Shown here in pieces: positions 6,810-9,373 of a stretch of DNA of 64,000 nt. Position 1 is the first letter of the stretch. Each line of letters starts with the position of its first letter. The notes beneath the pieces were generated by a model. The model saw only the letters and a list, made by a program, of their open reading frames with translations, was not told where the DNA came from and made no database searches. Position numbers and translations under genes: made by a program. The stretch is from an uncultured Spirochaetaceae bacterium (GTDB lineage: Bacteria > Spirochaetota > Spirochaetia > Sphaerochaetales > Sphaerochaetaceae). The stretch lies in assembly GCA_944388955.1 (NCBI GenBank), contig CALXKJ010000001.1, positions 62,001 to 126,000 on the forward strand, in the 5' to 3' direction.

Positions 6810-8525
6810 ATGGAATTCACTGAGAAGATGAAGCAGGAGGTTCTTGCTTCTGCAAGAGAATATATTTCGTCTGAGACAGATGATGTTTTCCGCTCTGAAG
6901 TTGAAAATGCTGTAGGACTTGGAGACTGGGAAGGCCTTTATGATCGTTTCTATACATCACTCGCTTTCGGTACTGCCGGTATGCGCGGGGTTATCGGGGG
7001 AGGAACGAATAGAATCAACACATACATGGTAAGGAAGGTAACACAGGGGCTTGCGGATTACCTGAATGCGTCTGTTAAGAATCCATCAACGGTCATTGCT
7101 TATGATTCAAGACTCTTCTCAGATAAGTTCGCTCTTTCAGCGGCAAAGGTTCTCGCGGCAAATGGTGTCAGAGTCTACCTTTATGATACGCTGCACCCAG
7201 TGCCGATGCTCTCATTTGCTGTACGCTATCTCAAAGCTACATCAGGCATAGTCGTAACAGCATCTCATAACCCATCGAAATACAATGGCTATAAAGTCTA
7301 CTGGTCAGATGGCGGTCAGGTCACTCCACCTCATGATATAGAGATCGCAAAAAAAGCTAATGCTGTTAAAAGCGAGGATATTAAGGATGGAGATGAGAAT
7401 GAGCTCAGGGCTTCTGGCATTCTCTCATCTGTTCCCGCTTCTGTCGATGAAGCATATTACAGCATGGTACTCTCATCGCTTCGCCGTCCAGAGGTGATTA
7501 AAGACGCGAAGATCAAAGTCGCCTACACACCGCTTCACGGAACAGGTAATATCCCTGTACGTCATATGCTTTCAACTCTTGGGATTGATTGCTCTGTCGT
7601 AAGCGAGCAGGAGCTTCCTGACGGGAACTTCCCGACAGTCAAGCTTCCGAATCCAGAGAGCGCTGAAGCAATGCAGCGTGTCATAGCGCTTGCGAAGGAT
7701 ATCAAGGCAGATATCGTTATCGGTACGGATCCTGATGCTGACAGAATGGGTATTGCGATTCCGAAGAATCCAGAGAAGACTGATTACCTCCTTCTTACAG
7801 GCAATCAGATTGCGACGTTGCTTGTCGACTATCTCCTTACGACAGCACAGGAGAAAAAGAGAGAAGGTATTCCATTTGTCGCCAAGAGCCTTGTCACTAC
7901 CGACATAGTCCGCAAGATTGCGGAGAATCATGGAGGCGAGTGCAAGGATGTCCTTACTGGATTCAAGTACATCGCAGAGGAGATTGAGAGAATCGAGGTT
8001 GGAAAGAACCCCGGACGTTATTTCCTCTTCGGCTGCGAGGAAAGCTATGGCTTCCTTACAGTTACGGAAGTCCACGATAAGGATGCTGTATCCTCTGCAG
8101 TGGCCGCGGTAGAGATGATGTGTTATTACGCCTCGAAGGGCATCACGCTTCAGGAGCGTCTTGACGATATCTATAAGACATATGGCTATTCGACAGAAGT
8201 CGTGTTCTCCAATGAGTATGACGGTGCTGAAGGCAAGGAGAAGATGAAAGCGATTATGGCCTCTATGCGCTCTCTCAAAGCAGGTGACACGCTTGTATCA
8301 AGGAAGATTTCTTCCGTTGAGGATCTTCTTGGCGAGAATACAGGTTTCCCGAAAGCAGATGTCATTATCATCCGCTTCGAATCTGGCGAGAAGCTTGTCG
8401 TACGTCCTTCTGGCACAGAGCCTAAGATCAAATACTATCTCTTCCTCACAGAGGGAAAGGATGGCAGGAAGGCTCTTGAGGAAAAGGTTGGGGCTATCAA
8501 AGCTGAATTCATGTCAGCCCTCTGA
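6810..8525 (+). CDS. Phosphoglucomutase/phosphomannomutase (alpha-D-phosphohexomutase)
   Basis: Interconverts hexose 1- and 6-phosphates. The 571-residue length is typical of PgcA-type bacterial mutases. Landmarks are phosphoserine loop TASHNPSKYNGYKVYW, metal loop GTDPDADRMGI, sugar loop GCEESYGFL and phosphate-binding RPSGTEPKIKYY. The AAGGAGG ribosome site is at 6799-6805. A sequence TATGATAGAATC at 6777-6788 resembles a -10 region, so it may have its own promoter within the tail of the HAD gene. A strong terminator follows. Confidence 0.92.
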   Translation: MEFTEKMKQEVLASAREYISSETDDVFRSEVENAVGLGDWEGLYDRFYTSLAFGTAGMRGVIGGGTNRINTYMVRKVTQGLADYLNASVKNPSTVIAYDSRLFSDKFALSAAKVLAANGVRVYLYDTLHPVPMLSFAVRYLKATSGIVVTASHNPSKYNGYKVYWSDGGQVTPPHDIEIAKKANAVKSEDIKDGDENELRASGILSSVPASVDEAYYSMVLSSLRRPEVIKDAKIKVAYTPLHGTGNIPVRHMLSTLGIDCSVVSEQELPDGNFPTVKLPNPESAEAMQRVIALAKDIKADIVIGTDPDADRMGIAIPKNPEKTDYLLLTGNQIATLLVDYLLTTAQEKKREGIPFVAKSLVTTDIVRKIAENHGGECKDVLTGFKYIAEEIERIEVGKNPGRYFLFGCEESYGFLTVTEVHDKDAVSSAVAAVEMMCYYASKGITLQERLDDIYKTYGYSTEVVFSNEYDGAEGKEKMKAIMASMRSLKAGDTLVSRKISSVEDLLGENTGFPKADVIIIRFESGEKLVVRPSGTEPKIKYYLFLTEGKDGRKALEEKVGAIKAEFMSAL

Positions 8526-8546
8526 TAGACTTTATTATTCATTTTG

Positions 8547-8570
8547 GGAGGTAGCAATACCTCCTTTTTT
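8547..8570 (+). terminator. Rho-independent terminator after the phosphohexomutase gene
   Basis: A perfect 7-bp stem (GGAGGTA/TACCTCC) with a GCAA tetraloop is followed by six T residues. Confidence 0.92.
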
Positions 8571-8571
8571 G

Positions 8572-8602
8572 TTGACAATTATTTACTGGGGGGGGGTAGC
8601 AT
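8572..8602 (+). promoter_or_regulatory. Promoter with a 9-G homopolymer in its spacer
   Basis: A consensus -35 TTGACA (8572-8577) and a -10-like TAGCAT (8597-8602) are separated by 19 bp that include an uninterrupted run of nine G (8588-8596). Seven G would give the optimal 17-bp spacing. Slippage in this run would change promoter strength, the classic arrangement for transcriptional phase variation of surface proteins. Confidence 0.7.
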
Positions 8603-8622
8603 TATCCTCGATGGAGGATAAT

Positions 8623-9246
8623 ATGAGGAAGATCTTAATTGTTGCGATCATGCTGTTTGCTGTGATGATTCCTGTTTTCGCTGAAGGTCAGATTGGTGTA
8701 TCGCTTACACCGGAATGGTTCTGGCTTACAAGTATGGAAGGGCAGAAAGCTCCTGAAAGTACAGGTATGACACGCTTTATGCTTACTGCCGATGGCGCAA
8801 ACTATTTTGGTTCGAACGGTGGATTCGGAGTGGAATATGGTCTTGGTATGATATTTCCAGTGAACAAGTGGAGTGGAAACGTAACTACAAAATCGACCGA
8901 AACAAGTGTTGGCTTCGTATTTAGAGCTGGTGTAGGTTATCGCCATGAGTTTTCTAATTTAATAGGGCTTGTGGCTGGTGTTGGGCTAAATGGCTTCTAT
9001 CAGAAAGAGAATGTGGCCTCACCTGAAGGACAAGCTAGTGCTTCTGAATTTGATCTTGGCATGTATGGTAGAATTGCTGCCGATTTTACTTTCATTGATT
9101 GTGTACGTGTAAATGCAGGTATTGCATTAGGCGGCCCGATTTATAGTGTTGTGAAGGCGTCAGCCGCAGGCGAAAGCATGTCGATGAATATACATATGAG
9201 CGGGGTTTTCCTTGCGCCATTTGTCGGTGTTTCATATGTCTATTGA
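8623..9246 (+). CDS. Small outer-membrane beta-barrel protein, predicted phase-variable
   Basis: A 207-residue secreted protein with signal peptide MRKILIVAIMLFAVMIPVFA, cleaved after the AxA-like VFA before EG. The mature part is Gly/aromatic-rich with alternating strands (GFGVEYGLGMIF, FVFRAGVGYRHEF, VGVSYVY) and ends in an aromatic residue, as expected of a BamA-inserted barrel of about 8 strands. Start ATG 8623 follows GGAGG (8613-8617). The in-frame ATG 8611 overlaps the ribosome site. A specific family (OmpW-like or other) cannot be assigned by eye. The promoter carries a poly-G tract and a terminator follows. Confidence 0.75.
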   Translation: MRKILIVAIMLFAVMIPVFAEGQIGVSLTPEWFWLTSMEGQKAPESTGMTRFMLTADGANYFGSNGGFGVEYGLGMIFPVNKWSGNVTTKSTETSVGFVFRAGVGYRHEFSNLIGLVAGVGLNGFYQKENVASPEGQASASEFDLGMYGRIAADFTFIDCVRVNAGIALGGPIYSVVKASAAGESMSMNIHMSGVFLAPFVGVSYVY

Positions 9247-9269
9247 TGATTGATGCTTATTTTGCATAG

Positions 9270-9299
9270 CAGCTAGGCATTGTGTCCTAGCTGTTTTTT
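9270..9299 (+). terminator. Rho-independent terminator after the beta-barrel gene
   Basis: An 8-bp perfect stem CAGCTAGG/CCTAGCTG with an 8-nt loop is followed by six T. Confidence 0.9.
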
Positions 9300-9373
9300 C
9301 TTACAGATAATCCTGCTTAGAGCGTATATCTCTATATGAAGACTTTGGATTATGTTTCAGATAGAGGTATGCA

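Follow-up and report, generated by a model that had tools for sequence, protein, structure and literature searches.

A poly-G tract in the promoter spacer of an exported-protein gene belongs to a genus-wide class of probably phase-variable promoters in uncultured Spirochaetaceae

We analysed a 64-kb stretch of DNA, referred to here as the window, in which the gene for a 207-aa exported protein (8623-9246) lies downstream of pgm (stop codon at 8523-8525); the features of this locus are all on the forward strand. An intrinsic-terminator-like hairpin with a T-run (8546-8570; hairpin 8546-8565), consisting of 8 pairs, a 4-nt loop and a T-rich tail, follows pgm and is predicted to insulate the next gene from it. 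The promoter of the 207-aa protein, as read from the sequence, begins with a perfect consensus -35 element, TTGACA (8572-8577), in a context shared with the genus-wide class described below. It continues with a fixed spacer portion of ten bases ending in AC-T (8578-8587), a tract of nine G (8588-8596) that we propose to be a slippage switch, and a -10 element, TAGCAT (8597-8602), that abuts the 3' end of the tract. The whole element (8572-8602) reads TTGACA-N10-G9-TAGCAT, which places a homopolymer of at least about 8 bases between -35 and -10; the first-pass annotation had claimed nine G at these positions and a spacing of 19 bp between TTGACA and TAGCAT, and all of its coordinates were exact. 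The end of the tract is 26 nt from the ATG (8623), which is preceded by a Shine-Dalgarno sequence, GGAGG (8613-8617), and a hairpin search identified a second terminator-like hairpin 3' of the gene (9268-9299). A perfect inverted repeat, TATCCTC-GATG-GAGGATA (8603-8620), spans the Shine-Dalgarno sequence; with transcription starting near 8609, as predicted, most of its left arm would not be transcribed.

The 207-aa protein is probably a small outer-membrane beta-barrel. It carries a signal peptide and ends in an aromatic residue, Y207, that is invariant among its homologues, which begin at the same start. Pfam OMP_b-brl (PF13505) was the only model listed up to E=1, with no match to OmpW; this match is weak (E 8e-5; 23.3 bits, with the cut-off at 28.7), and the same model was matched by 10 of the 19 members of the protein's family. 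A single-sequence structure model contained 8-9 strands at low confidence (mean pLDDT 41) and was too weak for a fold search. A profile of the 19 members found no sequence relative in the PDB, and a scan of viral contigs gave no usable relatives. The earlier description of a signal-peptide beta-barrel therefore stands for the signal peptide and goes no further than the weak PF13505 match for the barrel, for which there is no confident fold; membership of the OmpW family is not supported.

We found that the tract does not travel with the protein. The nearest orthologue (G007, 71% identical) has no tract and different neighbour genes, and runs of at least 7 G or C within 300 nt upstream occur in 0 of 23 relatives, two of which are paralogues in the same genome. 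Conservation of the tract with the 207-aa protein and with the barrel family was rejected, since the nearest orthologues lack it; a comparison of tract length at 8588-8596 found no relative that carries a tract at the barrel gene. The earlier suggestion of a mechanism shared with Treponema pallidum is at most a possibility as regards descent from a common ancestor. The pgm-comEC interval was likewise rejected as a conserved genomic site for the barrel gene, since in many relatives it holds a conserved membrane protein of ~245 aa, or nothing. In the window (8526-9373), the poly-G promoter and the barrel gene take the place of this membrane protein.

The tract is the sole run of at least 7 G in the window. 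Across the source genome (2.12 Mb), tracts of this kind are more frequent and longer than chance would give, with 21 runs of at least 9 G (16 G9, 3 G10 and 2 G11) against 2.6 expected, while the runs of 7-8 G number 4 (3 G7 and 1 G8) against about 56 expected for the two lengths together; expected counts were computed from the dinucleotide frequencies of the window and scaled to genome size. The distribution of G run lengths is bimodal, in that long runs generally fall below expectation, yet a special class peaks at nine.

This class is defined by a promoter. Within the source genome, 12 of 22 tracts of at least 8 G sit in the arrangement TTGAC[A/G]-N8-12-Gn, and most of these twelve promoters precede signal-peptide genes. 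We scanned 60 relatives and found TTGAC-N9-14-G8+ in 28 of the 36 genomes of the same genus; a genome has up to 26 matches to TTGAC-N9-14-G8, although matches overlap and the tracts are fewer. The same pattern read backwards was almost empty, and outside the genus its occurrence was sporadic (9/24 genomes). In an unselected collection of all tracts of at least 8 G from seven relatives, TTGAC lay at promoter distance from 87 of 137 tracts, compared to 1 of 128 runs of 5-7 G in the same DNA. Furthermore, the association is strand-specific, with TTGACA upstream on the G strand in 69 of 132 genus tracts and on the C strand in 1. The -10 element is positioned at a fixed offset from the tract end across the class, and its T, A and T at positions 1, 2 and 6 are found in 72, 74 and 76 of 81 promoters, respectively. 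The genomes of the genus are deposited as uncultured Spirochaetaceae, and the kinds of metagenome-assembled genomes (MAGs) among the relatives suggest that the genus lives in the gut. In the literature searched, we found no publication that describes poly-G promoters in Spirochaetaceae of the gut, which does not prove that none exists.

We found that the class promoters are linked to exported proteins, above all lipoproteins. Among 71 open reading frames (ORFs) downstream of class promoters, 58 have a lipobox and 63 a signal-peptide-like N-terminus, compared to a lipobox background of 3 of 61 ORFs in the window. The window's gene is exported as well, as its signal peptide and OMP_b-brl match indicate, but its barrel-type product is not itself a lipoprotein and is an exception in a mostly lipoprotein set. 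The few recognised domains encoded downstream are of surface type (GLUG, pectate-lyase-like adhesive, BspA-type LRR, Listeria-Bacteroides repeat, Big_3 and F5/8 type C). In several sets of genes the 5' end behaves as a cassette: in 13 of 17 pairs, a stretch of promoter, leader and signal peptide with 86-100% DNA identity is joined to mature proteins that share 12-31% identity. Overall, the genus holds a vlp-like repertoire of probably variable lipoproteins that have their own variable-tract promoters, conserved 5' ends and divergent mature parts. An exported protein starting AYQLSPLN(A/V)TYD was found in five genomes (L008, L202, L218, L263 and L283), with a tract of 8, 8, 10, 10 or 11 G located 72-79 nt before the ATG.

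Tract length differs between close relatives within the class. We compared tracts whose flanks on either side are at least 80% identical. Of the 31 such pairs, two of equal length were removed, as they came from a single place that had been read twice or from contig ends present in duplicate. The number of G differs in 21 of the remaining 29 pairs, which are not all independent and come from draft assemblies, where homopolymer counts can be wrong, with a range of 8-14 G. Orthologues in G019 and G033 have 8/11, 8/10, 8/10 and 9/10 G, copies within G025 have 8, 11, 12 and 14 G, and one pair with identical flanks of 149 bases has 9/8 G. These comparisons were made between copies elsewhere in the genus rather than at the window locus, and they indicate that the tract is fast-changing in the class. 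Contig ends at tracts were considered as a sign of population variants and rejected; a G10/G9 pair in G019 represents two loci that have a shared cassette and are divergent upstream.

The spacing between -35 and -10 ranges from 16 to 22 bp, and 19 bp is the commonest value (38/84 promoters). The non-G part of the spacer is ten bases in 52 of 84 class promoters, and nine G is the modal tract length. Compensation, in which a longer tract would accompany a shorter remainder, was rejected; the mean is about 9 G for non-G parts of 7-12 bases, and spacings therefore vary widely between genes. Forms of the promoter whose tract is exactly six or seven G long hardly occur (15 matches in total in 48 genomes, several of which are not of the class form). 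These data do not support the earlier proposal that 19 bp is suboptimal and that a loss of two G would give a better spacing of 17 bp. Either a spacing of 18-19 bp works in these organisms, or most loci stand in the off state, as contingency loci can.

Taken as one of this genus-wide set, the window element is most probably a phase-variable (contingency) promoter whose transcription would vary by slipped-strand events. The sigma-70-type promoter TTGACA-N10-G9-TAGCAT would drive the surface-protein gene, and replication slippage in the G run would shift the distance between -35 and -10 by one base per step. The altered spacing would in turn alter the transcription level of each surface gene independently. 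With a reusable promoter, leader and signal-peptide cassette placed mostly before lipoproteins, cells with changing combinations of surface proteins could result. Because the same arrangement precedes about a dozen mostly lipoprotein genes in the source genome and recurs across most of the genus, random up and down switching of surface proteins is probable, and phase variation is far likelier than it would be from a single locus. Slippage would be expected in living populations, certain tract lengths would be the ones that are on, and the benefit might lie in variation towards immunity, phage or niche. The first-pass annotation had predicted a phase-variable surface protein, and this holds for the slip-prone poly-G tract in the sigma-70-type spacer of a surface-protein gene, but not for the off/on model of 19 and 17 bp; its phrase, antigenic switching, may describe the outcome.

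The strongest competing explanation, which we regard as unlikely, is that the nine G are a fixed promoter feature held at that length by selection, either as a regulator site or as a stiff spacer marking a regulon of lipoproteins under common control. The sharp peak at nine and the scarcity of G6-G7 forms, the conserved flanks (ACY-Gn-TA) that are also found outside promoters, and the 19-bp spacing of 8 of the 11 complete promoters of the source genome would all fit such a feature. However, lengths of 8-15 G occur, and tract length differs between copies or orthologues whose flanks are 87-100% identical. The tprL tracts of T. pallidum, which vary in vivo (7-11 G), are likewise centred on nine (PMC7864442), and a mode of nine therefore does not imply that the tract is fixed.

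It is far less probable that the tract acts on translation, with changes in G number shifting an N-terminally extended protein in or out of frame. An open frame of 320 codons does run from a GTG at 8284 through the end of the barrel gene and contains the tract, and other tracts in the genus lie in 5' coding ends (e.g., L191 and L254), but the extension would run through the terminator-like hairpin and overlap pgm, which is read in a different frame. Furthermore, a good Shine-Dalgarno sequence precedes the ATG at 8623, which opens the signal peptide and is where homologues start, and the -35 and -10 elements around the tract are those of the genus class. Least credible of all is a chance homopolymer or assembly artefact beside an ordinary promoter: homopolymers are prone to error and the source assembly is a 33-contig draft, but the bimodal run-length distribution rejects chance, runs of at least 9 G far exceed expectation, and the independent assemblies of 28 genomes share the architecture with controls near zero, so that this reading is refuted for the promoter class as a whole.

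Tracts in the genus are not confined to the promoter class. We examined 60 non-promoter tracts of at least 8 G in eight genus genomes (e.g., L191, L229, L254 and L268), some of which are inside coding sequence. TA follows 40 of these 60 tracts and AC precedes 28 of them, compared to 9 and 11 of 132 runs of 5-7 G, respectively. Tracts that lie within the signal peptide or the early coding part of lipoprotein genes (L191, L254, L278 and L331) form a predicted second, translational switch class in the genus. A candidate phase-variable methylase was noted at L268 (G001 C18:71140-71148), where nine G lie within the 5' end of a coding sequence that has the DNA-methyltransferase motif DPPY. Three contig ends of the source genome (L015:1-76, L019:1-90 and L027:1501-1576) have in common a repeat of 65 bp or more with G9TA at its end, after which their sequences diverge; one copy precedes a lipoprotein gene and one seems to cut into an ORF. 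This repeat is possibly the edge of a mobile element, and together with the TA and AC flanks it hints that an element may carry tracts along as it spreads. Outside the genus, uncultured Clostridia MAGs (L076, L078, L079, L081, L146, L160, L161 and L165) contain TTGACA-N7-8-G8-10-TANAAT followed in several copies by a long hairpin, which looks like a repeated intergenic element.

A broader reading, which we offer tentatively, is that the uncultured genus has a modular system of surface diversity. The poly-G spacer promoter, leader and lipoprotein signal peptide, with the conserved flanks ACY-Gn-TA, might form a mobile or recombining cassette that is copied before unrelated surface proteins and switches each of them independently. 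The ACY-Gn-TA context, which is also found in coding sequences, would then mark a dedicated route for making and spreading poly-G switches.

Effects of comparable tracts have been measured for TP0126 and tprL of T. pallidum (PMC7864442), for vlp of Mycoplasma hyorhinis (PMC10502178) and for the fetA and porA promoters of Neisseria (PMC5320596). The precedent named by the first-pass annotation is real: the poly-G tract of TP0126 is located between -35 and -10 of a gene for a small exported outer-membrane-type (OmpW-like) protein, and transcription is optimal at 17 bp (PMC7864442). TP0126 and the poly-G promoters of tprE/G/J/L resemble the present case in belonging to a spirochaete and, for tprL, in having about nine G. 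They differ in that they come from another genus, that the protein described here has no OmpW match, that the modal spacing here is 19 bp against the reported optimum of 17, and that here twelve promoters of one architecture occur in a single genome, mostly before lipoproteins. The vlp genes of M. hyorhinis (PMC10502178) are similar in that a family of surface lipoproteins has one slippage-switched homopolymer promoter per gene, and vmm of M. mycoides, with a promoter-spacer repeat, is grouped with vlp as a similar lipoprotein switch. However, the vlp tracts are poly-A and the genes are clustered, whereas the tracts here are poly-G at loci dispersed over the genome, and the bacteria and proteins are unrelated. 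In Neisseria, a poly-G tract between the -35 and -10 elements of porA and a poly-C tract in the same place in fetA alter the spacing and the transcription level of outer-membrane proteins; PMC5320596 lists three transcriptional loci for one N. gonorrhoeae strain, compared to twelve here, and its accessible part does not describe a promoter/signal-peptide cassette. Our system differs from these known systems in scale and organisation, with dispersed poly-G spacer promoters across a genus and a signal-peptide cassette joined to unrelated lipoproteins. Among spirochaetes, switching by poly-G promoters is known from T. pallidum, an organism that is hard to study. If it applies to the whole lipoprotein repertoire of an uncultured genus from animal-gut samples, promoter slippage would be a broader spirochaete strategy that is not tied to T. 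pallidum, and the shared promoter/signal-peptide cassette would provide a concrete route by which switches reach new genes. A direct test in metagenomic reads would then be possible, since each genome offers about a dozen loci to score together.
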